NCBI GenBank assembly: GCA_030651035.1 | Contig: JAUSCK010000278.1 | Location: 1-33,503 of the forward strand | Direction of reading: 5' to 3' | Length of the DNA stretch: 33,503 nt | Source of the DNA: Elusimicrobiota bacterium | Lineage (GTDB): Bacteria; Elusimicrobiota; Elusimicrobia; Elusimicrobiales; UBA9959 | Shown here: positions 1 through 17,873 of the stretch, piece after piece | Layout: the number at the start of each line of letters is the position of its first letter | Numbering within the stretch: the first letter of the stretch is position 1 | Position numbers and translations under genes: made by a program | The notes under the pieces: model-generated | Databases searched by the model: none | What the model was told of the DNA's origin: nothing | Seen by the model: the letters and a program-made list of their open reading frames with translations, nothing else

Positions 1-3000
1 GTGGAGCTGCGCGTGGACGGCACCCCGCCCGTGTCGGCGCTTGAGATAAACGGCGGTATGATAGCCGCCGGCGCGACCGTCTACGCCGCCACGACGGACG
101 TGATAACGCTTGTAGCCATGGACACAGTTTCAAACGGCGTAATGAGCGGCCTTACAACCACGTATTTTCTTGTGGATATCACGTCCGACGAGTGCAGTTA
201 TATGGACTGGAGCGGCGGCATAAACGGCATGGGTTCTTGCGAGAACCGCTTCTACGGCGGGCCGTTCAGCCTGCCCGCCGGCGAGCATGTGATTTACTAC
301 TTTAGCCAGGATAACGCGGGCAACATAGAGCCATTGAAGACCGTATACCTGGTCGTCGCCGCAATTGATACCGCGCCGCCCACCGTCACGGCAAGCATAA
401 ACAACCAGATTTTAAGCGATAACGCGGCCGTGATAATGATGTCTACGGATACCATTACGCTTACCGCGATAGATGAAGGCTCGGGCTTGCTGGGTATATA
501 TTACACTGTGGATGCGGCGCTCTCCACCGGTACCGCCACCACCTACACCGCGCCGTTTACGCTGTCCGCGGGCACCCATACCGTGTATTACAGCGCCATG
601 GATAATGCGGGGAATGTGGCGGCAGTGAAGAGCGTTTTTGCGACGGTAGCCGCTAAAAAATACGAGAATCCTGCGCAATGGCCGTATTTCGAGTTTTTAC
701 GCAAATTTGGGTCGTGGAATGGAGCTTTTTTAGGCGGGACTTCCATAAACTTTGATAAAGATGCAAATATGTTGACCTTCTCAGGGGCAGCTGTTCAGAA
801 GTATACCGCTGATGGGGAATATCTTGGGGCTTTTGGGGCGGGACAACTGTATTCCCCGAAAAGCATGGCTGCCTGCCCAAGCGGGGATACCTGGATAGTT
901 GATTATGACTATACCCGTGGTTTATTTAAACTCAAGAAATTTGGTTTTAACGGGGCGCTTCTAAATGATATGGACCTCTCAAACCAGTCTGCCCTGGCTT
1001 ACACAATCCCGGTGTTTGTGACGTGTGATAAAAGCAACCTCTTATATATTCTTGGATTTGAAGGAGCTTGGACAGGAGTAATTTTTAAACTTAACGCCTC
1101 TGGAATATTTCTAAACCGCCTGCCTGTTTCCTTCCCAAGCGGCAATACCGGATTAATTGCTGATGCGCAGGGGAACCTGTATACACGCAACTCTAACCTA
1201 AGTAAAGCGTATAAATATTCTCCCGAAGGGCAGCTCTTGTTTGAATGGGCAACGAACCCGGGAGCCAGCGGCAATTTAGCCGCAGACGATTTCGGAAATA
1301 TCTATCTTAACAATTCCCAGAAACACATGCTTGAGGTTTATGCCAGTACCGGCGGGACGATTGCCTCTTTTGGAAGCTTGCCTGCGGGATATACCCAGGA
1401 GCCGCTGACACCCACGGGTGTACATGCCGTACACCCGGTTACAGGCAGGGTATTTGTGGCCGATAGCGGGAAAATAAAGGTTTATGGACTGGATCATACG
1501 CCGCCATCCGCGCCTGTTATTCTTAGCCCCATTAATATTGGGACGGTTTATACTCAGTCCCCGCTTATTCTTGGCAGGGCCGAGTCCGGGGCTGTTCTAC
1601 AAATATATGAAAATTTGAATTTAACCGGGGCGATAAACACCGATGAGGGCGGTTTAATAAATGCGAAAAGTCCTTTATTAACTTATGGGTCTCACTTGTT
1701 AAACTTTAAAGCATCGGATCTGGCAGGCAATTTGTCCGCTTTTTCGCCTGCTATCCATTTTTCTGTCAACTCCGCTAACCAGGTGGCATTCAGCACCTCT
1801 ATACCAGGGCCGGTGTATCCGCAGGTCCCATGGACAATTCAGGACACCAGCGTGACGGTTGTCGGCGATTTCGATAGAGATGGTAAAGCGGACGTTGTCG
1901 GGTTCAGCCGGGGAGGATGGTATTCTTTTTATGCCGGTAATAATGACGGGACATTTAGAAATGTGTATAACACTATAATTCCCCTAACGAATGGCGCTTA
2001 TGCTGACGGCGATGATGCTGTGGCCGCAGATTTTAATAAAGACGGCAAATTGGATGTAGCCGCTTCAATTCATAATCCGGTCTATCCTTTGGACGATGAG
2101 TTGTTGGTGTTATTGTATGGTAACGGCGACGGTACTTTCCAGATGCCGGTAACCATAGATCACCTTATCCCTTATGCGGGCATATCAAAAGGCGATTTTA
2201 ACAAAGACGGGTATACGGATATCGCAAGCGTTTCCGGCAATGCTATAAAAGTTTACCTCGGAGATCCCGCTTCCCTGTTTATCAGTATTTCAACGCCCAT
2301 ACCGGCCGAACTGCCGGCAGGCCGGGGCGGCGGGATAGTAATGGCGGATATTGACGGTGACGGAAAAACGGACATCCTTTTCAGAAACGCGGTTTTATTC
2401 GGGAACGGATCCGCGGGATTCGATTCCAGGGTTATTCTGTCTTATGACTACGATTACGATTCTTTTGTCAATGTGGGGAAAGCGTTGGTTTCTGATCTTA
2501 ATCAGGATGGGCATAAAGATATTATCCTGGTTGGCCCGGCGGTAGTGAGCGTTTTTGTTAATATGGGGAATCGAATATTTGAAAAAGTCCAGCAGATACC
2601 AAGCGGCGGAACGCTCTTCTACAGCGGAGGTGTCGCGGATTTTAATGGCGACGGCGTTGTTGATATAGCCGTTTCACCATACAATTTACAGAACGTATTC
2701 GTTATGGCGGGATATGGCGATGGAACATTTGCGGCGCCTATGGCGCTTCCCACATACGGGTATGCTCGATATGGTAATACATGCGGGACTATGGCGCTTG
2801 AGGATTTAAACGGAGATGGGAAAACTGATATTCTCCAGTCATCATCAAGGCTGGGGTTGACGGGCAGTGATGATATACATACCTTCTTTTCTTTTCTAAA
2901 TAAAACTTCGGTGCCTGATACTATTCCACCTTCCGCAGTTTCGATATATGTGGAAAACACAGCGGATGGAGTGGTGGCTGTTTCCTGGGTGGCGCCCGGA

Positions 3001-6000
3001 GATGATGGCAATACCAGCGTAGCCAAAAGTTATGAATTACGGTATAAAAATGAGCCGATTTTAAATGATACAGCTTTTAATAGCGCGCAAAGAGTTTTAA
3101 ATCTGACTACCCCCAGGCAACCTGGGGATACAGAGCGGTTCATTATTTATGACCTATCGGGCGGGACCACTTATTACTTTGCCCTGAAAACCTATGACGA
3201 TGCGGGCAACGCCTCGGCACTTTCAAACAGCCCGATGATATTCACAAGATATATAGTCAAAACCACGAATACAATAGCGGGGAATCCTGAAATAAGCATG
3301 GTTTCCGCTGTTCAGCCGTATATTACACAGGTAAGCACGGTTTCGGGTCTCGGAGCGGTGGCCATCGGTTCCGCCGCTGTGCAGTCCCTGGCAATGGCGA
3401 GCAACATGTATGAGATAGGACCCGAAGGTGTTTACGAGCCACCCGCGATTTTGACTTTCTACTATTCAACTGCCGCGCTGGCAGGTGTCGGCCTTATTGA
3501 GGCTGACGCTGCAGTTTATGAATATTTCACCGGAACCGGCTGGGTTAAGCTGAACGGACAGGTGTTGGACACCCTGAACCATAAAATAACCGTGCCCATA
3601 ACGCGCATTGCGTCGCTATTCGGGATATTCGGCGTGGTTACGGATAAAGCCGCGCCGGTGAGTGAGCTTTTTGTGGCCGGTAGTTCATGGACAATACCGG
3701 GAGCCGGCTTATTCATCAATACACGGTCAAGTGTAAGCCTGAATGCTTTTGACCCCATAGTCTACGGCACCTCTTCAGGGGTGGCGTTTACGGAGTTCCG
3801 CATAGACGCCGGCACCGCAACACCATTCACGCTCTACGCTTCCCCATTCATGCTTTCTACTGGCGCACACAAGGTGGAATTCCGTAGTCGGGATAAGGCC
3901 GGAAACATTGAGGCCGTGAAAACCGCAAAGGTTACAGTGGACGGTTCCGCCCCTTCAGCCTGGTATACTATCTCCGGCTCGTCATTTGCCGCAGGCGGGG
4001 TCATATATGCAGCGTCAGGGTCCACTATTACGCTTATCTCGTCGGATACAGCCGCCGGGGTGAAGGCGCTGTTTTACACTGTTAATGGGAGCACCCGCAG
4101 CGCCCTGTCCGGTATGGCGGAAATATCTCTCTCCTCTGCCGGGGCATATAACATAGGCTATCATGCCGAGGATAATGTAAATAATATCGGGGCTGAAAAT
4201 GTCGTGTCGATATATGTCGACACGATCGCGCCGGTCAGCACGCTTTCCCTGTCCGGGGACCAGGGGCGGGGCGGCTGGTATGTTTCCGCTGTTGACGCGG
4301 CAATAAGCGCGCGGGATGATAATTCGGGAATTTGGGACACTTTTTACAGCCTGGATGGATCCAGCTTCACCAGTTATGTTTCCTCTTTCTCCGTTTTGTC
4401 GGAAGGGAAGCATGATATTAAGGCTTATTCCTCTGATAATGTCGCCAATATTGAAAGTGTTCAGTTATTGGCCTTTGGTGTAGATATTTCCACGCCTGTT
4501 GTCGGTTATTCGTATCTACCGGCGGCAAACGGCGATGGCTGGAATAATACCGCTGTAGATGTGGTGTTTACCGCGACTGACGCGGTCTCCGGCATAGAGT
4601 ATTGCAGTTCCTCGTTCACGATCATCAATGAAGGCATAGGGATTCCCATCTCCGGCTACTGCGCGGACTATGCGGGCTGGACTTCTACGGCTTCTTTCAG
4701 CGTCAATATAGATACTACCGCGCCCTTGTCGAACGCGGAAATAGCGGCGGAGTACGGCCTGAACGGTTGGTTATTGTCTCCTGCGGGGATAACGCTTATT
4801 TCCACAGATAACTTAAGCGGCCTGGGCGGCTTATATTACTCGGTTGACGGCTCCTCTTTTGCGCTTTATTCCTCGTCATTCGCCGTCAGCGGTGAAGGGG
4901 CGCATATCCTGAAATATTATTCTGTGGACACGGCCGGCAACAAGGGAACTGAAAGAGAGCTTGCTTTTAAACTGGATATTAATGCCCCAATAGTTGAGGC
5001 GGTCTTCAACCCAGCCGCAAACAATTACGGTTGGAACAACATGGCGGTGACGGCGGTATTTAGCGGAACCGATACGGCGTCGGGCTTGGCCTACTGTGAA
5101 TCTGAAAAAGTTGTGGATATAGAAGGCTCAAGCCAAACCGTAACCGGCTATTGCGCGGATTATGCGGGTTGGACCTCCACGGCGGCATTGGTTGTTAACA
5201 TAGACACCACCGCGCCGAACTTGTCTTATGCGGCGGACCCCGCGCCGAATGAGGCGGGCTGGAATAATTCGGATGTGGCGGTTAAATTCGCCTGTGCCGA
5301 CGGCTTATCCGGGGTTAAATCCTGCCCGGCGGATATCCGGTTTGCCGATGAAGGATTAAATATTTCTACAGTCGCCACGGCGTATGACTATGCCGGGAAT
5401 TTGGAAAACATTTCTGCGACAGGGATAAATATAGACAGAACAGCCCCAGTCAGCACGGCTGCCATTTCAGGTGCATATAAGAACAGCTGGTATTCTTCAA
5501 CTGTTACTGTCGTCCTCGCTTCCACGGATACGTTGTCGGGGGTCGGGCGAATAATGTACCGGCTGGAGGGGGCAGGTGGGAGCGGCGTTGAGAGAGCTTA
5601 CGTCGAACCGGTAATCGTCGGCGCGAATGGACTATTTAAGCTGTATTACTACGCCGAGGATATTGCAGGCAATAAAGAGGCGGAGAAAACCATCGAATTC
5701 AAAATTGACGCCTCCGCGCCTTCTGTGGAGTATACGCTTGTCCCGGCGCCTTCCGGCGGCTGGAATAATACCGCCGTGCAGGTTGTGTTCTCCGGGACAG
5801 ATACTTTAACCGGTATTGATGTGTGTTCTTCTGAAACAGTAGCAGTTGAAGGCGCCATGCAAAAAATCGTCGGCTGGTGCCGCGATCTGGCCGGGAATAT
5901 GGGATACTCTACCGCAAGCGTAAATCTTGACCTGACAAAACCGGTTGTTTCCGCTAACTCGACGCCAGGCCCCAACGAATCCGGCTGGAATAACGGGCCA

Positions 6001-9000
6001 ATTGAAGTGGCTTTCGTCGGCACCGATACATTGTCGGGCCTTGCCTATTGCGAGCCCGAGAAGACCATATCCATAGAGGGCTCCAGCCAGGCCGCGAACG
6101 GGTACTGTCTGGACAATGCCGGGAATTCGTCCACTTCCACCATTATTGTGAACATTGATATTGCCTCACCCGGTATATCCGCCGCGCGTTTACCGTTGGC
6201 GAATGCCTATGGCTGGGCTAATCAGGATGTTAAAGTTTCTTATACCTGTACAGACGGTTTGTCTGGGGTGGCAACGTGTCCGGATGAGAGGCTGTTCTCT
6301 TCGGAGGGAGCGGATATCTCAACTACCGCCGCCGCCTTTGACTATGCCGGCAATATAAGGAGCGTTGACGTGTCCGGGATAAGCATTGATAAAACTTTGC
6401 CCGTGACGCGCGCAGAACTTTCAGGCGTCGCGGAAAACGCCTGGTATAACACGGCTGTCACGTTAACGCTGATCTCAACCGACGCATTATCAGGGGTTGA
6501 TAAAGTGTTGTACAGGGTGGAAGGTTCAGGCTACAGCGGGGCGGAGCAGGCCTATGCCGAACCTGTTGTCTTTGATGGGGCCGGCGTGTTCGAAGTGCAT
6601 TACCAGACCATTGACAGGGCGGGTAACGCAGAGACGGAGAAGTCCCTGACGTTCAAGATAGACCGCGGGCTGCCGCAAATAAGCTACACACTTGCGCCGC
6701 CGTCCAATGAAAAAGGCTGGAATAACACGGACGTGACAGTCAGCTTTGAATGTTCGGACGGTTTGTCGGGGATAGCGGGTTGCCCCGGCTTTATAACATA
6801 TTCCATGGAGGGGATTGATATCTCCACCTCGGTACGCGCCTGGGACCTGGCGGGGAATTATCAGGATAGCACGGTCGGTGGCATCAAAATAGACAAAACC
6901 CCGCCTGTCAGCTCGGCTGCATTTTCCGGTGTATATAATAACGGCTACTACGGTGGGGCCGTTGCCGTAACTATAACTTCCACGGACGCGCTTTCCGGCG
7001 TGGCCGGGACGTTCTACTCGCTGGACGGCGGCGAATTAGCCGAATACCAGGGGCCCGTCTGGGTTAGTGTGGAAGGCAGTCACTTAGTGCGGTATTACGC
7101 GCAGGATAAAGCCGGCAATATCGAGGCCGGGCGGACTGTGACGTTCAACATAGACGTCACCGCGCCAATCGTCTTTTATGCCATTATACCGCCGGCGAAT
7201 TTTAATGGTTGGAATAACTCAGCGGCGGAGGTTGTGTTTACCGCTACCGATACTTTCTCCGGTGTTGCCTCCTGCACGCCTGGTCAGATTGTGTCCATAG
7301 AGGGCTCACCCCAGTTGGTGGCCGGTTCCTGCGCGGACCTGGCCGGGAATGTGGCGTACTCCACGGCTATTGTGAATATTGACCTTTCCGTCCCGGAGGT
7401 TTCAGCCGTGAAAACACCGGTCGCCAATGCAGACGGTTGGAACAACACGGACGTAGCCGTCAGCTTTGAATGCTCGGACGGCTTGGCGGGTGTGGCCAGT
7501 TGCCCCGGTGTTGTAACGTATTCAGAAGCCGGGGTTAATATCTCCACCTCGGTGCGCGCCTGGGACCTTGCGGGGAACTATCAAACTATAGCTGTCAGCG
7601 GTATCAATATAGATAAAACTCCGGCTATCAGCACGGCGGCTCTTTCCGGGCACTACAGGAACGGCTGGTATTCGTCGGCTGTAGGAATAGTGCTGGGATC
7701 CACGGATGCTTTGTCCGGTGTAGAACAGACTTATTATTCGTTGGACGGTGCGGCTTATGCGGGTTATTCCCAACCGTTGAGTGTCAGCGGCGAGGGCGCG
7801 CATGAACTGAGATATTATGCGGTTGATAAAGCAGGCAACATGGAAACCTCCGGGAAAGTTGAATTTAAAATAGACACCCAGGTTCCTGTTGTTGACTACG
7901 CGTTTACACCCATGATGAACGCCGCGGGTTGGAATAATAGTGTGGTCTCCGTGGTATTCAGCGGCACGGACGCCGTTTCAGGAGTTGAAGAGTGTTCTTC
8001 TGGCAATATATCCGCTGAGGGAGCAGGGCAGAAAATCACCGGCTGGTGCCGCGATATTGCAGGCAATATCGCCTATGCCACAGTTACGGTTAATGTGGAT
8101 ATTACGGCTCCCATAGTGTCGGCCTCGCAGACCCCGGCGCGGAACGCCGATGGCTGGAACAATACACCTGTCTTGGTGGCTTTCACCGGAACCGATTCCG
8201 TATCAGGTATGTCCTACTGCACACCCGCTGCGCTGATAACGTCCGAAGGCTCAAGCCGGGCCATAACAGGCTACTGTGCGGACTATGCGGGCTGGACTTC
8301 CACAGCGGCGTTGGTTGTGAATATAGACACCACCGCGCCGAACCTGTCCTATATGGCTACACCTGCGCCGAATGAGGCGGGCTGGAATAATTCGGAGGTG
8401 GCGGTGAAGTTTGCGTGCGCCGACAGCTTATCCGGGGTTAAATTCTGCCCGGCGGATATCCGGTTTGCTGACGAAGGAACAGATATCTCTACAGCCGCCG
8501 CGGGGGATGATAATGCCGGGAATTCGGAAAATATTTCAGTAGCCGGTATAAACTTGGACAGAACAGCCCCAGTCAGTACGGCTGCCGTTTCAGGTGTATA
8601 TAAAAACGGCTGGTATTCTTCCACCGCTACGGTGATCCTGGTTTCCACTGACGCGCTGTCGGGTGTTAAGAGGATACTCTATAGGCTGGAGTGGGCAGGG
8701 GAGAACGGTGAAGAACGACTCTATTCCGAGCCGCTGACTATCAGCGTGGACGGAATCACCCGACTGTATTATTACTCCGAGGACAGAGCCGGCAACCGAG
8801 AGGCGGAGAAAACCATCGAATTCAAGATTGACGCCTCCGCGCCATTGGTGGACTATGCGCTGATCCCGGCGCCCGATTCCGGTGGCTGGAACAATACCGC
8901 CGTCCAGGTCGTCTTCACCGGGACAGATACTTTGTCAGGCATTGATAAATGTTCTTCCGAAACAGTAGCTGTTGAAGGCGTAACGCAAAAAGCAGCCGGC

Positions 9001-12000
9001 TGGTGCCGCGATGTGGCCGGGAATATCGGATACTCTACCGCAATCGTAAATCTTGATCTGACAAAACCGGCTGTTTCCGCCAGCCAGTTGCCAAGCCCTA
9101 ATGAATCCGGCTGGAACAATGGGCCGGTTGAAGTGGCTTTCACCGGCAGCGATACCTTGTCGGGCCTTGCCTACTGCGAACCTGCGAGGATAATATCCGT
9201 GGAGGGCTCCAGTCAGACCGTGAGCGGGTACTGTCTGGATTACTCCGGGCTGTCGTCAACCGTAACGTATATCATTAGCATAGACACCACAGCGCCGCTG
9301 CTGGGATATTTCAAGACTCCGGCGAACGCCGACGGCTGGAATAATACGGACGTAGCCATCGGCTTTGAATGCTCGGACGGTTTGTCAGGTATAGCGGGCT
9401 GCCCCGGCTCTATAACGTATTCGGCGGAAGGGATTGATATCTCCACATCGGTACGCGCCTGGGACTTGGCAGGGAATTATCAGGGTAGCGCAGTCAGCGG
9501 CATTAATATAGACAAAACCCCACCCGTCAGCGCCTCCGCGCTTGCAGGTACTTTTCGTAACGGCTGGTATTCGTCGGCAGTAAGCGTGACCCTAACTTCC
9601 ACTGATACACTATCGGGCGTAAAAGAAACTTATTACTCAATGAACGCCGGTCAGTATGCGCTTTACACACAGGCGCTGGTAGTAAGCGCCGATGGTTCGC
9701 ATGAAGTGCGGTACTATTCAATAGATAAAGCCGGGAATATTGAAACCGTCGCTAAAGTGGGTTTCAAGATAGACACCGGCGCCCCGGGTGTCGGTTACGC
9801 GCTGACCCCGTCGGCGAACGCTGCCGGTTGGAATAATAGCGCGGTTTCTGTGGTATTCTCCGGTACCGATGCTGGTTCCGGTATTGAAAAATGTTCTTCA
9901 GGCAATACTTCTGCCGAAGGTAGAGACCAACAGATAGTTGGCTGGTGCCGAGACTTGGCGGGTAATATCAGTTATGCCACCGCCACGGTCAGCGTGGACC
10001 TGACCGCGCCTGGTATCACGCATACCCGCACAGCGGCTAACGCCGACGGCTGGAACAACGGCGACGTGGCGGTGAACTTCACCTGCACGGACAGCCTGTC
10101 AGGCATCGGTAGTTGCCCCGCCAGCATTACTTATTCAGCGGAAGGGTTGAACATCTCAACCACAACCCGCGCTATAGACCTGGCCGGCAATTTCGCAGAT
10201 GAAGCTGTACAGGGGATAAACATAGACAAGACCAACCCCATCAGCGCGTCCGCGCTTGCCGGAACACTCCAGAACGATTGGTATTCCTCTGCCGTGACCG
10301 TAACGCTGTCCGCCACTGATGTCTTGTCGGGAGTGAAGGAAACTTATTATTCACTGGACAGCGGGCAGTACACGCTTTACATGCAGGCGCTGGTAGTAAG
10401 CGCCGACGGCGCACACGAAGTGAAATATTATTCAGTTGATAAAGCCGGTAATGCCGAAACCGCCGCTAAAGTGGACTTTAAGATAGACACCGGCGCGCCG
10501 GCTGTCGGCTACACGCTTAACCCGCCGGCTAATGCGGCGGGCTGGAACAATAGTGTTGTATCCGTGGCATTTAGCGGAACGGATGCCGGTTCAGGTGTTG
10601 AAGAATGCACATCGGGCAATGTAACCGGCGATGGTGCCGGCCAGAAGCTTGCGGGCTGGTGCCGAGACTTGGCCGGTAATGTAACCTACGCCACCGCCAC
10701 GGTCAGCGTGGACCTTACGCTTCCGGCGGTATCAGCTTCGCAGACCCCGGCGCAGAACGCCAACGGCTGGAACAACGGCTCGGTTGAAGTGAGCTTCGCC
10801 GGTACCGACGCCATGTCTAACATCGCCTACTGCGAGCCGGCAAAGACCATTTCAACTGAAGGCGCAAGCCAAACCGTTTCCGGTTACTGCGTGGACTACG
10901 CGGGCCTGTCGTCCACCGTATCTTACACCGCCAGCATAGACGTCACCGTGCCGGTTATAACGCATACGCGCACACCGGCTAACGCCGATGGCTGGAACAA
11001 TTCAGACGTAGAGGTTACCTTCACTTGTACAGACGGCCTGTCGGGCATCGGTAACTGCCCCGCTGGTATTACTTATTCAGCGGAAGGGTTGAATATCTCA
11101 ACCATAACACGCGCCATAGACCTGGCCGACAACTTTGCTGATGCTGCTGTTCAGAGGATAAATATAGACAAAACAGCACCTATCAGCACGTCCCTGCTTG
11201 CCGGAACCTACCGCAACGGCTGGTACTCGTCTATTGTAAGCGTAACCCTAACTTCCACCGATTCACTGTCCAGCGTGAAGGAAACCTATTATTCGCTGGA
11301 CTCCGGGCAGTATACGCTTTATACGCAGCCGCTGGTTGTAAGCGCCGCCGGTGCGCATGAAGTGCGGTACTATTCAATAGATAAAGCCGGGAATATTGAA
11401 ACCGTCGCTAAAATTGACTTCAAGATTGACACGGGCACCCCAACTGTCGTCTACACGCTGAACCCGCCGGCTAATGCGTTGGGCTGGAACAGTACCACTA
11501 TTTCAGTGATATTCGCCGGCACTGACTCTGGTTCCGGCGTGGAAGAATGCTCATCCGGCAATACCTCCTCCGAAGGCGCGGGGCAGAAAATAGCAGGCTG
11601 GTGCCGAGACTTGGCCGGTAATGTAACCTACGCCACGGCAACTGTCAGCGTAGACCTTACAACACCCGCTGTATCCGCGTCGCAGGTCCCGGCGCAAAAC
11701 GCCTACGGTTGGAACAGCGGCGCTGTTGAGGTTAGCTTTGCCGGTACTGACGTCCTATCCGGCATCGCCTACTGCGAGCCCGCAAAGACCATCTCAACTG
11801 AAGGCTCAAGCCAGACCGTTTCCGGCTACTGCGTGGATTACGCGGGCCTGTCGTCTACTGTATCGTATACCGCCAGTATAGACATAACTGTGCCGGTTAT
11901 AACTCATACGCGTACGCCGGCCAATGCCGATGGCTGGAACAATTCAGACGTAGCGGTTAACTTCACTTGCACGGACAGTCTGTCGGGCATTAGAAGTTGC

Positions 12001-15000
12001 CCCGACAGTATCACCTATTCAGCAGAAGGGTTGAATATCTCAACCACTACCCGCGCTACGGACCTGGCGGGTAATTTCACTGATGCTGCTATTCAGGGAA
12101 TCAATATAGACAAAACAGCGCCCGTCAGCGCGTCCGCACTTGCCGGAATCTACCGCAACGGCTGGTACTCGTCAATTGTAAGCGTGACCCTAACCTCCAC
12201 CGATTCACTGTCCGGGGTGAAGGAAACCTATTACTCACTAGACGGCGGGCAATATGTGCTTTACGAGTATGTGCCGGTAGTAAGCGCCGATGGCGCGCAC
12301 GAAGTGCTGTACTACTCAACTGACAAAGCCGGAAATATCGAAACCGCTGGCAAGGTTGACTTCAAAATAGACACCGGCGTTCCTACCGTAAGCTACACGC
12401 TGAATCCGCCGGCAAATGCGGCAGGGTGGAACAGCGGAGCGGTTTCTGTGGTATTTGCCGGCACGGACGCTGTTTCCGGCATAGAAGAATGCTCTTCCGG
12501 CAATACATCCGCCGAGGGTGCGGAGCAGCAAATAGCCGGCTGGTGCCGTGACTCGGCGGGTAATGTTGGTTATGCCACAGCTACAGTCAGCGTAGATCTG
12601 ACGACCCCTGTGGTATCCGCCTCACAAGCCCCCGCGCAAGACGCCTACGGTTGGAACAACGGCGCGGTTTCTGTTGTATTCACCGGCACAGATACTGTTT
12701 CCGGCATAGCGTACTGTACGCCTGGCAGATTTATTAATGTTGAAGGATCAAGCCAAGCCGTAACAGGCTACTGTGCGGACTACGCCGGGTTGTCATCAAC
12801 CGCGATGTATACCATCAGCATAGACACCACCGCGCCGCTGCTTACATCTTCAAGGACGCAATCGAACGCCGATGGCTGGAACAACGGCGATGTGTTGCTT
12901 AACTTCACCTGCACAGACAGCCTGTCGGGCGTCGGTAGTTGCCCCGCCGGCATCACTTGTTCAGCGGAAGGTTTGAACATCTCCACAACAGTCCGAGCCA
13001 CGGACCTGGCGGGCAATTTCGCCGAAGCGGCTGTTCAAGGAATAAACATAGACAAGACAGCGCCCATAAGCGCCTCCGCGCTCGCCGGTACTTTGCGTAA
13101 CGGCTGGTATTCATCGGCTGTAAGTTTGACTTTAACTTCCACAGATACACTTTCCGGCGTGGCCAAAACGTTCTACTCGCTGGACGGCGGCGCTTTTGCC
13201 GAGTACCAAACACCCATAAGCGTTAACACGGAAGATCTGCACACCGTGCGGTATTATGCGCGGGACAAAGCCGGTAATACTGAGGCCGAGCAGACTCTGG
13301 AGTTCAATATAGACGTCACCGTGCCGGTAGTTTCTTATACCGTTAACCCACCGGCTAATTCCAAAGGCTGGAATAATTCATCGACGGAGATTGTGTTTAG
13401 CGCCACCGACACATTCTCCGGAGTTGATTTCTGTGCGCCCGGCCAGATTGTGGCTGTAGAGGGGGGAAGCCAGAAAGTAGTCGGCTCCTGCACAGACAGG
13501 GCTGGGAATATCGCGTATTCCACGGCTACTATAAATACAGACTTTACTAAGCCGGTAACACTGGCGTCCCAGGTTCCGGTTCCCAATAGCAATGGCTGGA
13601 ATAAAGAACCCGTAACCGTGAGCTTTGCCGGGATCGACGCGCTTTCCGGCACGGCGTACTGCACACCTGAGAAGCTGATATCAGCGGAAGCGGCGGAGCA
13701 GGGAGTCACCGGCTATTGCACGGATTACGCCGGGAACTCAAGCACCGCCACACTGACCCTGAATATAGACCGAAGTGTGCCGACTATAACGATATCCTCG
13801 CCCGTAGCAGGGCAGACATTCATAGCTACGCGCGGTGTAATTCCTGTGCTGTTCGCCGTAAAAGACAACCTGGATCCCGCACCGGCCTTTGAGGCTTTCC
13901 TGACGCAAGTCGAAGATAAAGGAAGCCCGCGCGGGAATAGGCCTTCAATTATAGCGGTCATAAACGGCCAGTCCATAGAGCCGCTGGATATAGACGACGG
14001 AATATGGCAACTGGCCATCAGTGCCACTGATTTTGCAGATAATATAAACTCGCTGTCCGGCGGGGTCTTTGAGGTGGTGCATGATGTGCTCGCGCCGAGG
14101 ACTGTGCAGGCAGTGGCTGGCGGCGAGTGGCTGGCGGCTGACGAAACAACCTATATCAAGAACGACACGGCGCTGGAACTTGTCAGCAGGGACAATCTGA
14201 TACTGGCGGAGGACGGGATAGGATTAGGCGTTAAAAATCAGACTGTCAGGCTGAAGTCTGACGGCTTAATAGTGAAGGAATTGACATTTGCGAATCCGGA
14301 GCCGAAGCAGGGAGCGAGCTTTACATCTACCTTTACCGTCTCAACCTTGGGCCTGGCGGACGGACTTTATAGTCTCGCGTATCGCGCCGAGGATGTGTTG
14401 GGGAACATAGAGGCGGAAAAGGCGCTTACGATAGGGCTGGACAACACCGCCCCGGAGACCGCCGCCGAACTTGCCGGGACGCCCGGCGAAAACGGCTGGC
14501 ATGTTTCTGCCGTGACCATCAACCTTGCCGCTAACGATGCACTTTCCGGAGTGGCGGGGATATCTTATCAGGTTGAATCCAACGGGCAGAAGTCGGAAAT
14601 CAAAAACTACATAGAACCTGTTGTAGTCAGTGCAGAAGGCTTATATAAGGTTTATTTCTCCGCCAAGGACAAGTTGGGGAACACTGAAGCCGAAAAGACC
14701 GTAGCGTTTAAGATAGACCTTACCAACCCGCTTATAAGCGTGGAAAGGTCCCCGCTTGCCAATGAGTATGGCTGGAATAACACGGCTGTGACGGCGGGTT
14801 ATATCTGTACCGACGGACTCTCCGGCGTGAAGTCATGTCCGCCCGCAGCGACCCTTGCGGGGGAAGGTTTAAGCCAAAGCGTTTCCGGCGAAGCTTTGGA
14901 TTATGCCGGCAACAGGGCAGGTGCTTCCGTAAGCGGCGTAAATATAGATAAAACTGCGCCCATATCGACTTATAGACCGGAGGGGATGGTTTATATTTCT

Positions 15001-16890
15001 GAAATCGGAAAAACCTACATAAATCTGGCGGCGAATATATACTTAAGCGCCACTGACCCCATTTCAGGCGGCGCAGCAAGCGGTATTAACGCCGTGGAAT
15101 ATTACATCGATTCCGCGCCGTTCATGGTTTACACCTCGTCGTTCAGCCTCACCGAGGGGATCCGCACAGTCTATTACCGCTCGCGGGACAAAGCCGGGAA
15201 TATCGAGACCGCTAAATCCGCTGAGGTCAACGTGGATGGAACAAGTCCTGTTACGGCATTTAATATCTCCGCCTTGCTCTATATCGCGGACGGGATGCGC
15301 TATATAACACCGGCAAGTATTCTATCCTTCGCAGCCGCCGACCCGTTAACCAATGATACGGCTTCCGGCGTGATGCTTACAAAATACAGGATAGATGGCG
15401 GCAACTGGCAGGTGTATGTGGATAGTTTCAGCATAGCTGCGGAAGGATTGCATACCGTGGAGTATTATTCCCTAGACCGGGTACAAAACACCGAGACAAT
15501 GAAGACCGCAAAGCTGGCCGTGGATAATACGCCGCCGGCCACGGCCATAAGCTTCGGCGAACCCAAAGCGGAGACCTTCGGCCTGCCGATAATAACACCC
15601 GCAACCAAAATAACCTTATCTGCCGTTGACACTGTAATTAATGAGGCCGCGTCCGGGCTTAACAGTATTTTCTACGAAATCAAGAACGTCCCGACCGGCG
15701 CCCTTACGCCTGTAACAGCTTATCTTTCCCCATTCAGCATACCTGAGTCGGGCACCTTCATAATAAGGTTCTGGTCGAAAGATAACGCGGGCAACATTGA
15801 AGCGGTCAAAGAAAAAATGGCGGCAGTGACAACCTGGCGGGAAGATGGCCTTGCGGCGGTCTCCGGCCTTGAGATGTCCGGCACGGCGGATATTGCAGGC
15901 GCTGTAAGATCCAACGCCGTTATAAGCCTTGGCGGCAATGCCAGGATACTCGGCGACGTTACGGCCAGCACTATAACCCTGTCAGGCAAAGCCCAGATAA
16001 CCGGCCGGCAGGTCAGCGGGGCGGCGCCGGTAAATCCCGCGCCCATAAATCTGGCCGGCATAATTCAAAGTGCCGTGGCCGTGAATAACAATATCCTTGT
16101 GTCCTCCAGCCTTGTGAACGGCAAGCTGGTACTCGGCTCAAAGGCGAGTATAGTTCTTTCTACCGGGACCTATTACTTTAAAGGCATGGAACTTTCAGGC
16201 GGCTCCAGTATTATGATCGCCGGTAAGGTGGATATATTAGTGGAAGGCGGGATATCGATAAATGGCGGCAGTTCATTGAACGCTTCGGGCGCAGCCTCCC
16301 TGCTTTCTATAATAATAAGCACGTCTTCCGAGCTGAAATTCAATGGCGGGGCCGCTCTTGCGGCCTGCATATACGCCCCGTATTCGGCTATGAAGTTGTC
16401 CGGCAATGCCCTGCTGGGCGGGCATTATTTTGTGAAGACCGCCGCCGTGAGCGGCACGGGCAATATCCTCCAATCCGGTGAGGTTTTGCCTGTGGCCTCA
16501 GCGCCGACGGGCGGCGGTATAAAGACCAAGGCAGCTGCTATGTCTGCAGGGGGCTTCGGCGTCCTTCCCGGGCCAGATCCTGCGTTCAGGCTGGGTGAGG
16601 TTTACGTGTATCCGAACCCCGCCAAGGGCAGTGAAGTTCCTGTATTCCATATAGAGACCGGCATAGCCGACAGCGTGAAGATAACTATTTACACCGTAAG
16701 CGGCCGGGCGGCGCACGAGTACACGCTTACAGGGCTTCCCGCAGAACTGGATGATGGCAACGGTTTAAGCTATGCCTATGAATACACCTGGCGAGGCCAT
16801 ATTCCGAGCGGGGTTTACCTTTACTACATAGAGGCGCAGAAGGCCGGGCAAAAATTGAAGAAAACCGGAAAATTCGCGGTGGTAAGGTAG
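1..16890 (+). CDS. Giant secreted multidomain repeat protein (OmpL47-like/FG-GAP), 5' partial, with T9SS-like C-terminal domain
   Basis: The frame is open from the first base, so the N-terminus and signal peptide lie outside the window; 5629 residues are visible. Order, approximate residues: two Ig/OmpL47-like repeats (1-215); an NHL-like propeller (220-498); an Ig-like domain (500-592); seven FG-GAP/VCBS motifs of DxDxDG type (620-970); a fibronectin III-like domain (973-1080); a beta-rich linker (1085-1215); about 50 Ig-like repeats, mostly starting near D-x-T-x-P (1215-5275); a short-strand beta-helix-like region (5285-5490); and a C-terminal domain (about 5534-5629) with YPNP, SGVYLY and a final KFAVVR, as in T9SS type A sorting domains. 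Repeats are of two sorts: A (about 87-95 aa, WYSS, YYSLD, DKAGN) and 'GWNN' modules (about 76 aa) with paired cysteines. Likely an exported fibre or adhesin; ligand unknown. It is followed 8 nt later by a PorV-like gene. Confidence 0.9.
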   Translation: MELRVDGTPPVSALEINGGMIAAGATVYAATTDVITLVAMDTVSNGVMSGLTTTYFLVDITSDECSYMDWSGGINGMGSCENRFYGGPFSLPAGEHVIYYFSQDNAGNIEPLKTVYLVVAAIDTAPPTVTASINNQILSDNAAVIMMSTDTITLTAIDEGSGLLGIYYTVDAALSTGTATTYTAPFTLSAGTHTVYYSAMDNAGNVAAVKSVFATVAAKKYENPAQWPYFEFLRKFGSWNGAFLGGTSINFDKDANMLTFSGAAVQKYTADGEYLGAFGAGQLYSPKSMAACPSGDTWIVDYDYTRGLFKLKKFGFNGALLNDMDLSNQSALAYTIPVFVTCDKSNLLYILGFEGAWTGVIFKLNASGIFLNRLPVSFPSGNTGLIADAQGNLYTRNSNLSKAYKYSPEGQLLFEWATNPGASGNLAADDFGNIYLNNSQKHMLEVYASTGGTIASFGSLPAGYTQEPLTPTGVHAVHPVTGRVFVADSGKIKVYGLDHTPPSAPVILSPINIGTVYTQSPLILGRAESGAVLQIYENLNLTGAINTDEGGLINAKSPLLTYGSHLLNFKASDLAGNLSAFSPAIHFSVNSANQVAFSTSIPGPVYPQVPWTIQDTSVTVVGDFDRDGKADVVGFSRGGWYSFYAGNNDGTFRNVYNTIIPLTNGAYADGDDAVAADFNKDGKLDVAASIHNPVYPLDDELLVLLYGNGDGTFQMPVTIDHLIPYAGISKGDFNKDGYTDIASVSGNAIKVYLGDPASLFISISTPIPAELPAGRGGGIVMADIDGDGKTDILFRNAVLFGNGSAGFDSRVILSYDYDYDSFVNVGKALVSDLNQDGHKDIILVGPAVVSVFVNMGNRIFEKVQQIPSGGTLFYSGGVADFNGDGVVDIAVSPYNLQNVFVMAGYGDGTFAAPMALPTYGYARYGNTCGTMALEDLNGDGKTDILQSSSRLGLTGSDDIHTFFSFLNKTSVPDTIPPSAVSIYVENTADGVVAVSWVAPGDDGNTSVAKSYELRYKNEPILNDTAFNSAQRVLNLTTPRQPGDTERFIIYDLSGGTTYYFALKTYDDAGNASALSNSPMIFTRYIVKTTNTIAGNPEISMVSAVQPYITQVSTVSGLGAVAIGSAAVQSLAMASNMYEIGPEGVYEPPAILTFYYSTAALAGVGLIEADAAVYEYFTGTGWVKLNGQVLDTLNHKITVPITRIASLFGIFGVVTDKAAPVSELFVAGSSWTIPGAGLFINTRSSVSLNAFDPIVYGTSSGVAFTEFRIDAGTATPFTLYASPFMLSTGAHKVEFRSRDKAGNIEAVKTAKVTVDGSAPSAWYTISGSSFAAGGVIYAASGSTITLISSDTAAGVKALFYTVNGSTRSALSGMAEISLSSAGAYNIGYHAEDNVNNIGAENVVSIYVDTIAPVSTLSLSGDQGRGGWYVSAVDAAISARDDNSGIWDTFYSLDGSSFTSYVSSFSVLSEGKHDIKAYSSDNVANIESVQLLAFGVDISTPVVGYSYLPAANGDGWNNTAVDVVFTATDAVSGIEYCSSSFTIINEGIGIPISGYCADYAGWTSTASFSVNIDTTAPLSNAEIAAEYGLNGWLLSPAGITLISTDNLSGLGGLYYSVDGSSFALYSSSFAVSGEGAHILKYYSVDTAGNKGTERELAFKLDINAPIVEAVFNPAANNYGWNNMAVTAVFSGTDTASGLAYCESEKVVDIEGSSQTVTGYCADYAGWTSTAALVVNIDTTAPNLSYAADPAPNEAGWNNSDVAVKFACADGLSGVKSCPADIRFADEGLNISTVATAYDYAGNLENISATGINIDRTAPVSTAAISGAYKNSWYSSTVTVVLASTDTLSGVGRIMYRLEGAGGSGVERAYVEPVIVGANGLFKLYYYAEDIAGNKEAEKTIEFKIDASAPSVEYTLVPAPSGGWNNTAVQVVFSGTDTLTGIDVCSSETVAVEGAMQKIVGWCRDLAGNMGYSTASVNLDLTKPVVSANSTPGPNESGWNNGPIEVAFVGTDTLSGLAYCEPEKTISIEGSSQAANGYCLDNAGNSSTSTIIVNIDIASPGISAARLPLANAYGWANQDVKVSYTCTDGLSGVATCPDERLFSSEGADISTTAAAFDYAGNIRSVDVSGISIDKTLPVTRAELSGVAENAWYNTAVTLTLISTDALSGVDKVLYRVEGSGYSGAEQAYAEPVVFDGAGVFEVHYQTIDRAGNAETEKSLTFKIDRGLPQISYTLAPPSNEKGWNNTDVTVSFECSDGLSGIAGCPGFITYSMEGIDISTSVRAWDLAGNYQDSTVGGIKIDKTPPVSSAAFSGVYNNGYYGGAVAVTITSTDALSGVAGTFYSLDGGELAEYQGPVWVSVEGSHLVRYYAQDKAGNIEAGRTVTFNIDVTAPIVFYAIIPPANFNGWNNSAAEVVFTATDTFSGVASCTPGQIVSIEGSPQLVAGSCADLAGNVAYSTAIVNIDLSVPEVSAVKTPVANADGWNNTDVAVSFECSDGLAGVASCPGVVTYSEAGVNISTSVRAWDLAGNYQTIAVSGINIDKTPAISTAALSGHYRNGWYSSAVGIVLGSTDALSGVEQTYYSLDGAAYAGYSQPLSVSGEGAHELRYYAVDKAGNMETSGKVEFKIDTQVPVVDYAFTPMMNAAGWNNSVVSVVFSGTDAVSGVEECSSGNISAEGAGQKITGWCRDIAGNIAYATVTVNVDITAPIVSASQTPARNADGWNNTPVLVAFTGTDSVSGMSYCTPAALITSEGSSRAITGYCADYAGWTSTAALVVNIDTTAPNLSYMATPAPNEAGWNNSEVAVKFACADSLSGVKFCPADIRFADEGTDISTAAAGDDNAGNSENISVAGINLDRTAPVSTAAVSGVYKNGWYSSTATVILVSTDALSGVKRILYRLEWAGENGEERLYSEPLTISVDGITRLYYYSEDRAGNREAEKTIEFKIDASAPLVDYALIPAPDSGGWNNTAVQVVFTGTDTLSGIDKCSSETVAVEGVTQKAAGWCRDVAGNIGYSTAIVNLDLTKPAVSASQLPSPNESGWNNGPVEVAFTGSDTLSGLAYCEPARIISVEGSSQTVSGYCLDYSGLSSTVTYIISIDTTAPLLGYFKTPANADGWNNTDVAIGFECSDGLSGIAGCPGSITYSAEGIDISTSVRAWDLAGNYQGSAVSGINIDKTPPVSASALAGTFRNGWYSSAVSVTLTSTDTLSGVKETYYSMNAGQYALYTQALVVSADGSHEVRYYSIDKAGNIETVAKVGFKIDTGAPGVGYALTPSANAAGWNNSAVSVVFSGTDAGSGIEKCSSGNTSAEGRDQQIVGWCRDLAGNISYATATVSVDLTAPGITHTRTAANADGWNNGDVAVNFTCTDSLSGIGSCPASITYSAEGLNISTTTRAIDLAGNFADEAVQGINIDKTNPISASALAGTLQNDWYSSAVTVTLSATDVLSGVKETYYSLDSGQYTLYMQALVVSADGAHEVKYYSVDKAGNAETAAKVDFKIDTGAPAVGYTLNPPANAAGWNNSVVSVAFSGTDAGSGVEECTSGNVTGDGAGQKLAGWCRDLAGNVTYATATVSVDLTLPAVSASQTPAQNANGWNNGSVEVSFAGTDAMSNIAYCEPAKTISTEGASQTVSGYCVDYAGLSSTVSYTASIDVTVPVITHTRTPANADGWNNSDVEVTFTCTDGLSGIGNCPAGITYSAEGLNISTITRAIDLADNFADAAVQRINIDKTAPISTSLLAGTYRNGWYSSIVSVTLTSTDSLSSVKETYYSLDSGQYTLYTQPLVVSAAGAHEVRYYSIDKAGNIETVAKIDFKIDTGTPTVVYTLNPPANALGWNSTTISVIFAGTDSGSGVEECSSGNTSSEGAGQKIAGWCRDLAGNVTYATATVSVDLTTPAVSASQVPAQNAYGWNSGAVEVSFAGTDVLSGIAYCEPAKTISTEGSSQTVSGYCVDYAGLSSTVSYTASIDITVPVITHTRTPANADGWNNSDVAVNFTCTDSLSGIRSCPDSITYSAEGLNISTTTRATDLAGNFTDAAIQGINIDKTAPVSASALAGIYRNGWYSSIVSVTLTSTDSLSGVKETYYSLDGGQYVLYEYVPVVSADGAHEVLYYSTDKAGNIETAGKVDFKIDTGVPTVSYTLNPPANAAGWNSGAVSVVFAGTDAVSGIEECSSGNTSAEGAEQQIAGWCRDSAGNVGYATATVSVDLTTPVVSASQAPAQDAYGWNNGAVSVVFTGTDTVSGIAYCTPGRFINVEGSSQAVTGYCADYAGLSSTAMYTISIDTTAPLLTSSRTQSNADGWNNGDVLLNFTCTDSLSGVGSCPAGITCSAEGLNISTTVRATDLAGNFAEAAVQGINIDKTAPISASALAGTLRNGWYSSAVSLTLTSTDTLSGVAKTFYSLDGGAFAEYQTPISVNTEDLHTVRYYARDKAGNTEAEQTLEFNIDVTVPVVSYTVNPPANSKGWNNSSTEIVFSATDTFSGVDFCAPGQIVAVEGGSQKVVGSCTDRAGNIAYSTATINTDFTKPVTLASQVPVPNSNGWNKEPVTVSFAGIDALSGTAYCTPEKLISAEAAEQGVTGYCTDYAGNSSTATLTLNIDRSVPTITISSPVAGQTFIATRGVIPVLFAVKDNLDPAPAFEAFLTQVEDKGSPRGNRPSIIAVINGQSIEPLDIDDGIWQLAISATDFADNINSLSGGVFEVVHDVLAPRTVQAVAGGEWLAADETTYIKNDTALELVSRDNLILAEDGIGLGVKNQTVRLKSDGLIVKELTFANPEPKQGASFTSTFTVSTLGLADGLYSLAYRAEDVLGNIEAEKALTIGLDNTAPETAAELAGTPGENGWHVSAVTINLAANDALSGVAGISYQVESNGQKSEIKNYIEPVVVSAEGLYKVYFSAKDKLGNTEAEKTVAFKIDLTNPLISVERSPLANEYGWNNTAVTAGYICTDGLSGVKSCPPAATLAGEGLSQSVSGEALDYAGNRAGASVSGVNIDKTAPISTYRPEGMVYISEIGKTYINLAANIYLSATDPISGGAASGINAVEYYIDSAPFMVYTSSFSLTEGIRTVYYRSRDKAGNIETAKSAEVNVDGTSPVTAFNISALLYIADGMRYITPASILSFAAADPLTNDTASGVMLTKYRIDGGNWQVYVDSFSIAAEGLHTVEYYSLDRVQNTETMKTAKLAVDNTPPATAISFGEPKAETFGLPIITPATKITLSAVDTVINEAASGLNSIFYEIKNVPTGALTPVTAYLSPFSIPESGTFIIRFWSKDNAGNIEAVKEKMAAVTTWREDGLAAVSGLEMSGTADIAGAVRSNAVISLGGNARILGDVTASTITLSGKAQITGRQVSGAAPVNPAPINLAGIIQSAVAVNNNILVSSSLVNGKLVLGSKASIVLSTGTYYFKGMELSGGSSIMIAGKVDILVEGGISINGGSSLNASGAASLLSIIISTSSELKFNGGAALAACIYAPYSAMKLSGNALLGGHYFVKTAAVSGTGNILQSGEVLPVASAPTGGGIKTKAAAMSAGGFGVLPGPDPAFRLGEVYVYPNPAKGSEVPVFHIETGIADSVKITIYTVSGRAAHEYTLTGLPAELDDGNGLSYAYEYTWRGHIPSGVYLYYIEAQKAGQKLKKTGKFAVVR
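655..1494 (+). other. NHL-like beta-propeller segment of the giant protein
   Basis: Residues about 219-498 have no D-x-T-x-P Ig repeats. They show loosely repeated blades with F-G, Y-x-x-G/D-G and D-A-x-G-N-L-Y patterns (for example IADAQGNLYTRN, DDFGNIYLNN, GRVFVADSGKIKVYG), as in NHL or six-bladed propellers. The DNA is visibly AT-richer than the repeats: line 1021-1080 is 23/60 G+C by count, against 38/60 for 10681-10740. The fold call is by motif resemblance only. Confidence 0.6.
1852..2910 (+). other. Seven FG-GAP/VCBS calcium-binding blades (integrin-like propeller)
   Basis: Seven motifs of the form D-[FIL]-[DN]-x-D-G-x-x-D-[IV] occur at roughly even spacing: DFDRDGKADV, DFNKDGKLDV, DFNKDGYTDI, DIDGDGKTDI, DLNQDGHKDI, DFNGDGVVDI and DLNGDGKTDI, starting near bases 1867, 2029, 2200, 2347, 2497, 2638 and 2809. 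Seven is the blade number of an integrin-type propeller, and the acidic loops are classic Ca2+ sites. 'YGNGDGTFQ' and 'GYGDGTFAAP' FG-GAP turns lie between them. Like the preceding NHL block, the DNA is AT-richer than the repeat array. Confidence 0.85.
10225..11166 (+). repeat. ABCD super-repeat copy 1 (942 nt, 314 aa)
   Basis: It starts at the GAC of DKTNP and ends just before the same codon of the next copy. It contains one A, one B, one C and one D module, and is exactly 942 nt, as are the next two copies. Long stretches are near-identical at DNA level to copy 2, including the GWCRDLAGNVTYATATVSVDL segment (10651 and 11599 regions), which points to recent segmental duplication. Confidence 0.9.
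11167..12108 (+). repeat. ABCD super-repeat copy 2 (942 nt, 314 aa)
   Basis: The second exact 942-nt unit, with modules A at 11167, B at 11428, C at 11653 and D at 11881. The internal module offsets (261, 225 and 228 nt) match those of copies 1 and 3, so no indels separate the three units at these boundaries. Confidence 0.9.
12109..13050 (+). repeat. ABCD super-repeat copy 3 (942 nt, 314 aa)
   Basis: The third exact 942-nt unit. It is more diverged than copies 1 and 2: the C module here has YCTPGR rather than YCEPAK, and the D module has an additional, unpaired cysteine (AGITCSAEG, where the others have a tyrosine). Confidence 0.85.
15841..16500 (+). other. Short-strand beta-helix-like segment before the sorting domain
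   Basis: Residues about 5281-5500 leave the Ig pattern and become a run of short hydrophobic/Gly/Ser strands (SGTADIAGAV, SLGGNARILGDV, ITLSGKAQITG, VLSTGTYYFKGMELSGGSS, DILVEGGISINGGSS). This resembles bactofilin-like or right-handed beta-helix proteins and some adhesin anchor regions. It sits between the last Ig module and the C-terminal domain, where a rigid stalk would fit. The assignment is by pattern only. Confidence 0.5.
16591..16887 (+). other. T9SS type A-like C-terminal sorting domain
   Basis: The last ~100 residues contain VYVYPNPAKG, VKITIYTVSGR, a W-x-G turn, SGVYLYYIEA, and the terminal Lys/Arg-rich KTGKFAVVR. This matches the pattern of type IX secretion C-terminal domains (YPNP, GVYxY, GKxxVxR) and of the related FlgD-Ig-like fold. 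The adjacent PorV-like gene supports a role in outer-membrane translocation. No other T9SS component is in the window. Confidence 0.75.
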
Positions 16891-16898
16891 GAGGGATT

Positions 16899-17873
16899 AT
16901 GAAACATAAAACTGACCCTCATGACATGCTGAACCGTATTGTTTATCTGCTTGCAAGACCATGGGTTTTGGGCGCGGCGCTTGTGTTTGTTTTTACGCCT
17001 TCGGTAAAGATAAGCGAGGCGCTGGAAAGCGGCGCTGAGTTCCTGCGTATAGACACGGATGCCCGCGCTGGGGCCATGTCTTCGGCCGGGGCCGCTTCAG
17101 CAATGGGCATAAGCGCCATAACCTATAATCCTGCGGGGCTTGCCTCTCTAAAACACGGCGAGGCCGCTTTAAGCCACAGCGCTTTGTACCTTGGCACGGC
17201 GCACGACTTTGCAGGGGCGGGCTTTGCCCTGCCCGGCTCGGCCGGGTGGAAAATGGGTTTAAGTTTCGCAAGGCTATCAAGCGGCAGCATGGAAGGCCGC
17301 GCGGCCTCAAGGTCCAGAACCGGCGGCTATTCTGCCTATGACCAGGCTGCGAGCCTCGCTTTAGCCAGGCAATACGGCATGTATAGTGTTGGCGGGGCCG
17401 TAAAATACATAGAAAGTTCTATAGCGGGGGTTAAAGGAACCGGCTACGCCGTGGATATGGGGGTACAACGCGGTTTAAAGGGGCTCCCGGTATCTGTGGG
17501 TGTTGCGGTACAGAACCTTGGCCCCGGCATTAAATATATTTCACAGCGGGATCAATTGCCTTTAAGTGTAAGCGCCGGTATAATGTATATGCCGGTGGCG
17601 GGGTTTATGTTGAATTTTGACGCCAGGCGTTATGTGTATGATAAACACACAACCTACAGTCTGGGTACCGAGTACGCCCTGTTCGGCGGGCCGGGAAGCA
17701 TGTCGGGCCTGAGCCTGCGCGGAGGCGTAAATGGCGGGGCGGGCCAGAGCGCGGCGGGGGCGTTCAGCGCGGGCGCGGGAATAAAATTAATGAACGCTGA
17801 TCTGGACTATGCCATGTCGCCGGAAGGTACTCTGGGCAGCACCCAGCGGATAACACTGAAGAAAAAGTTTTAA
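16899..17873 (+). CDS. PorV/PorQ (UPF0164)-family outer-membrane beta-barrel protein
   Basis: 324 aa with an N-terminal hydrophobic segment (about 20-35) as a possible signal sequence, then the family signature: AGAEFLRI-like start, DARAGAMSSAGAASAMG and ITYNPAGLA (residues about 45-85), followed by alternating amphipathic strands typical of a FadL-like barrel (SLALARQYGMYSVGGAVKYI, LPVSVGVAVQNLGPG, SLRGGVNGG) and a C-terminal ITLKKKF ending in Phe. PorV proteins bind T9SS C-terminal domains at the outer membrane. An AGGAGG Shine-Dalgarno overlaps the giant gene's TAG stop (16889-16894), so translation is probably coupled to it. The family is clear; the role as acceptor of the giant protein is inferred from adjacency. 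Confidence 0.88.
   Translation: MKHKTDPHDMLNRIVYLLARPWVLGAALVFVFTPSVKISEALESGAEFLRIDTDARAGAMSSAGAASAMGISAITYNPAGLASLKHGEAALSHSALYLGTAHDFAGAGFALPGSAGWKMGLSFARLSSGSMEGRAASRSRTGGYSAYDQAASLALARQYGMYSVGGAVKYIESSIAGVKGTGYAVDMGVQRGLKGLPVSVGVAVQNLGPGIKYISQRDQLPLSVSAGIMYMPVAGFMLNFDARRYVYDKHTTYSLGTEYALFGGPGSMSGLSLRGGVNGGAGQSAAGAFSAGAGIKLMNADLDYAMSPEGTLGSTQRITLKKKF

Follow-up and report, generated by a model that had tools for sequence, protein, structure and literature searches.

The window, which is the whole stretch of 33,503 nucleotides analysed here (contig C67:1-33503), belongs to the MAG of an uncultured Elusimicrobia bacterium (4.47 Mb in 320 contigs), and it opens within a giant gene encoding a surface-type protein (Table 1). 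The gene is a single uninterrupted frame whose 5' end is cut by the contig start, and the protein is therefore longer than 5629 aa. Several FG-GAP/VCBS-type repeats and an fn3-like domain precede a stalk of Ig-like modules of four types (A, B, C and D), and beyond the stalk lie a segment shared with many relatives and a tail resembling T9SS sorting domains, followed directly by a PorV/PorQ-family gene. A DUF7305 match and a weak bactofilin-like match (15781-16557) are located just before the tail, and a DDE transposase (PF13701; 29762-31069) is found downstream, beyond pyrimidine-type genes and MutL. The same genome encodes two more giant OmpL47-repeat proteins (G000:C306, L058, and G000:C259, L059), and the PorV-family gene that comes after each is 87 % and 96 % identical, respectively, to that of the window. 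The relatives used for comparison were Elusimicrobia MAGs, several of them from groundwater, with one genome per species.

Table 1. Features of the giant gene and its neighbour (coordinates of the window)
Feature	Position	Strand	Remarks
Giant surface-type protein gene	1..16890	+	5629 codons; open frame runs off the 5' edge of the contig
Best FG-GAP/VCBS-type repeat, one of several	2494..2673	+	upstream of stalk; FG-GAP_3, E 4e-37 for the whole piece
fn3-like domain	2926..3213	+	domain search; upstream of stalk
Block of 40 Ig-like modules	4219..13767	+	AC-ACD-ABCD-AD-ABD-ABCD-ABCD-ABD-ABCD-ABCD-ABCD-ABC
U0 (A-B-D), fourth super-repeat copy, without module C	9511..10224	+	714 nt
Identical tract, U0 vs U2 (non-adjacent), likely exchange tract	9698..9756 and 11354..11412	+	59 nt
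U1	10225..11166	+	942 nt; A 10225, B 10486, C 10711, D 10939
U2	11167..12108	+	942 nt
U3	12109..13050	+	942 nt; next equivalent codon 13051
Chimeric end unit A42-B43-C44	13051..13767	+	junction near 13149; max-chi2 permutation p<1e-4
Segment of ~224 aa after the block	13768..14439	+	follows the block in many relatives too, mostly at 49-65 % aa identity
T9SS type A-like C-terminal sorting domain	16606..16845	+	TIGR04183, 26.6 bits, cut-off 23, isolated tail
PorV/PorQ-family outer-membrane protein gene	16899..17873	+	NF033709, 115.5 bits, cut-off 90; 8 nt after the giant gene

The A modules are of the OmpL47 type and match NF047446 with 58-88 bits per domain (cut-off 40), while the B, C and D modules reached the cut-off of no Pfam or NCBIfam model, NF047446 scoring at most 14.4 bits. 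Judged by their sequences, B, C and D constitute a domain family that has no model in either collection. Their cysteines follow a clean pattern across 123 modules from many genomes (window span 4483-14946): A modules lack cysteine (44/44), each of the 53 B and C modules has a cysteine pair at p2 and p3 (the strict p3 motif is missing from a single C module), and all 26 D modules carry cysteines at p1 and p2, with a third in two of them. This switch of register within an unmodelled domain family suggests two alternative disulfide registers, one in B and C and the other in D. The structure model of U2 (pLDDT 95.7) is all-beta over its full length and is read as four successive sandwich domains, with a pTM of 0.67 indicating that relative domain placement is less certain. 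A PDB sequence search with the protein found no relative. The best structural matches of the ABCD unit in the PDB were fragments of the grappling-hook protein GhpA of Aureispira (9flx, 9flw and others; query-normalised TM up to 0.59), followed by SiiE and by RTX and ice-binding adhesins, which have the extended tandem beta-sandwich stalk in common. However, identity to GhpA is only 12-16 % and generic chains of Ig-like domains match too, and the likeness concerns the fold, not hooks or predation. SiiE, RTX and ice-binding adhesins use other secretion routes.

In the original prediction, three consecutive ABCD units were described as exactly 942 nt long, with long near-identical DNA runs in the first two copies, and were attributed to recent unequal exchange of a 314-aa unit. 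That observation proved half right. The spacing was confirmed, the equivalent codons being placed at 10225, 11167, 12109 and 13051 with offsets of 261, 225, 228 and 228 nt (modules of 87, 75, 76 and 76 aa) and no internal indels. The near-identity was not, as U1 and U2 agree at 79.6 % of nucleotides and their longest identical run is 41 nt. The other pairs are at 76 % (U2/U3) and 72 % (U1/U3), values far above chance, and third-codon-position identity between units is 53-64 % (64 % for U1/U2, 58 % for U2/U3 and 53 % for U1/U3). Over its A, B and D modules, U0 is 77-78 % identical to U1-U3. The 942-nt register can be traced from 9997 until it is lost near 13150, and three more ABCD units of 945-954 nt are found upstream (5434, 7612 and 8557). 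The array was not reported by Tandem Repeats Finder, for which the longest period covered was 500. A second, distant duplication, independent of the 942-nt repeat, links 5122-6113 with 8245-9239 at an offset of 3123/3126 nt and ~84 % identity in two long pieces.

The inference of recency had relied on the premise that selection on the protein would let length drift, and this premise is not supported. Among the 44 A, 20 B, 33 C and 26 D modules sampled from the window and its relatives, C is invariably 76 aa long (33/33), 17 of the 20 B modules have 75 aa, every D module has 76 or 77 aa, and the usual length of A is 87, 88 or 91 aa; in the wider family, B/C/D matches are mostly 225, 228 or 231 nt. 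The AC-ACD segment that opens the block (405 aa) spans exactly 1215 nt in the window, G019:C14, G021:C148 and G004:C6, at 56-76 % aa identity among the four genomes. Since lengths are conserved between species at such divergence, the exact 942-nt length is no evidence of recent exchange. The ABCD register is also present in a paralogue and in relatives. The exact spacing thus probably reflects fold-constrained module lengths together with in-frame copying of whole modules, rather than recency. These results correct a common inference, in that exact spacing alone cannot date a duplication when the repeat consists of fold-fixed domains.

Fixed lengths could also be taken to mean that no process acts on the array at all, and that selection on the folded protein alone holds length and order, the likeness of the units being descent from a very old array. 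The fixation of module lengths in all relatives and a dN/dS of ~0.17 are in keeping with this explanation, but exchange has left its marks in the array. In the tree, U0-U3 form one lineage-specific clade (support 0.98) apart from all units of the relatives, and this clade already disfavours selection acting alone. Furthermore, the first ~100 nt of the end unit resemble U0-U3, whereas the remainder resembles the unit at 6892, which accounts for the chimeric right edge of the array. The non-adjacent units U0 and U2 share a run of 20 concordant polymorphic sites that includes the 59 identical nt (p<0.0005; global p=0.04 when synonymous codons alone are used). A chimeric edge and a conversion-like tract have thus been left by exchange, and the original proposal of unequal exchange is borne out in this respect. 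Together with the contrast in module number at one address described below, these features render selection alone a very improbable explanation.

The age of this exchange is a different matter. The dS values of the U1-U3 pairs are 0.74, 0.96 and 1.23, and 40-56 % of fourfold sites differ between units, compared with a saturation expectation of 70 %. For single-copy neighbour genes of the window and the syntenic G019 the corresponding dS is 0.65-1.06, all dS values being Nei-Gojobori/Jukes-Cantor estimates that are rough near saturation. Unit dS lies within or above the range of the neighbour genes, indicating that the duplications are approximately as old as that species split. Recent crossing-over of the 314-aa unit, still active at strain level, would agree with the exact 942-nt spacing and with the one 59-nt tract, but is opposed by dS values as old as the G019 split, by the low third-position identity and by the equally exact lengths between species, and is therefore considered unlikely; as a reading of exact spacing, recent duplication was rejected on account of dS and of the equal spacing across species. 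U0-U3 were duplicated inside this lineage around the time when it split from the sister species, and the 942-nt super-repeat is best explained as the youngest recognisable section of an old stalk with ABCD periodicity.

The predicted variation in unit number was found among related genomes, at the level of species. The genes downstream of the locus (CcdA-like, phosphoribosyltransferase, OMP decarboxylase, dihydroorotate dehydrogenase and amidohydrolase) are common to four genomes, and at this one address the block comprises 40 modules in the window, 7 in G004, 6 in G002 and none in G019. The classification of module types was trained on modules from the window itself and divergent modules in relatives are perhaps undercounted; nevertheless, a B/C/D profile search of whole genomes shows the same contrast, with 29 matches in the window gene as opposed to 4, 4 and 0 in the other three genomes at that address. 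In relatives, proteins that share the architecture of the giant protein contain 0-12 strong modules. An incorrect copy number resulting from collapsed or chimeric repeat assembly would be conceivable in a fragmented MAG with a contig break inside the 5' end of the giant gene. However, no exact repeat in the gene exceeds 59 nt, which is little compared with the usual assembly k-mers and read pairs, the units all differ from one another by 20-28 % and the frame is uninterrupted; an assembly artefact is thus highly improbable. The stalk grew by old duplications to ~40 domains, as opposed to 0-7 in relatives at the same position, and its length varies between species.

The C-terminal tail is matched by TIGR04183 in all 23 family members. 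In the window protein, the score of this model falls to 19.6-20.9 bits, under the cut-off of 23, when a longer piece is searched, and Pfam PF18962 gives 22.9 (cut-off 27 not reached); CHU_C matches weakly in only 3 of the 23 tails. The partner gene did not reach the T9SS equivalogs PorV and PorQ. Elsewhere in the genome (L133:8182-13689, G000:C52), a SprA/Sov-like ORF of 1836 aa matches TIGR04189 with 111.5 bits (E 2e-32) but falls short of the equivalog cut-off of 200, and PF14349 (SprA_N) matched nowhere, controls included, and is uninformative. Matches to the PorU model NF033707 were rejected, as they cover short C-terminal stretches only and look like sorting tails; further giant frames of 5708 aa (G000:C34) and 3138 aa (G000:C183) likewise end in short sorting-tail-like matches. 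Profile searches of the genome, in which the SprA-like ORF stayed below its cut-off, confirmed no other T9SS core component, and a search covering parts of the published literature returned nothing on T9SS function in Elusimicrobia. The N-termini of complete relatives are signal-like as judged by eye, the window gene's own 5' end being off the contig. On the basis of these signals, the protein is likely exported.

A clade uniting the PorV-family partners from the four loci at the shared address is rejected (AU p 6e-10). Those of G004, G002 and G019 each group, with starred support, with a copy from their own genome, and that of the window groups with G000:C259 (support 93/90). This clustering by genome and not by address fits either gene conversion between loci or repeated duplication. 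The AC-ACD opening of the window's block is closest to that of G019:C14 (76 % aa, dS 0.92), a locus at a different address, whereas G019 carries a gene devoid of the block at the address of the window. The best block match by itself was consequently rejected as a guide to orthology, and address and content were treated separately; the two are partly uncoupled. A recombining repertoire may be tentatively envisaged, in which each genome holds several PorV-linked loci whose 3' ends (tail and PorV gene) are kept alike by gene conversion, while the stalk bodies expand, contract and change address, although this scenario is more doubtful than probable. If true, it would represent a system diversifying surface rods outside Bacteroidota.

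Comparison with known systems shows partial likenesses. The A modules (up to 88 bits) resemble OmpL47-type proteins such as Leptospira OmpL47 (NF047446; PMC2698987), while the Cys-bearing B, C and D modules of 75-77 aa differ from them. OmpL47 has been called a transmembrane beta-barrel from topology predictions (PMC2698987), whereas the window model is a chain of separate beta-sandwich domains. SprB/SprF and other Flavobacterium T9SS adhesin/shuttle pairs likewise combine a giant surface protein, a C-terminal secretion signal and a co-encoded outer-membrane partner (PMC12618676, PMC9143113). In Flavobacterium, PorV recognises type A tails, while type B cargo frequently comes with a linked PorP/SprF shuttle of its own (PMC12618676). 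The window differs from these linked pairs in having a type A-like tail (the tail fits the type A model), a partner of the PorV family and an origin in Elusimicrobiota, not Bacteroidota. As the Flavobacterium linkage is of type B with PorP/SprF, a PorV-family gene beside type A-like cargo is a variant arrangement.

Taken together, the locus probably encodes an exported adhesin-like rod whose module length is fixed by the fold and which evolves in module number, with old unit copying and a T9SS-like exit. Each module would form a rigid beta-sandwich bead, and each extra unit would lengthen a rod attached at the outer membrane. The protein would leave the cell via a translocon resembling that of the T9SS, with the help of its type A-like tail and the adjoining PorV-family protein, and the rod may serve attachment or contact. 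Few bacterial phyla are as rich in huge proteins as Elusimicrobiota (PMC11573180), and the function and exit route of these proteins are little understood. The locus described here provides a concrete case, combining a giant Ig-like stalk, a T9SS-type tail, an adjacent PorV-family gene and a measurable change of stalk length at one chromosomal address.
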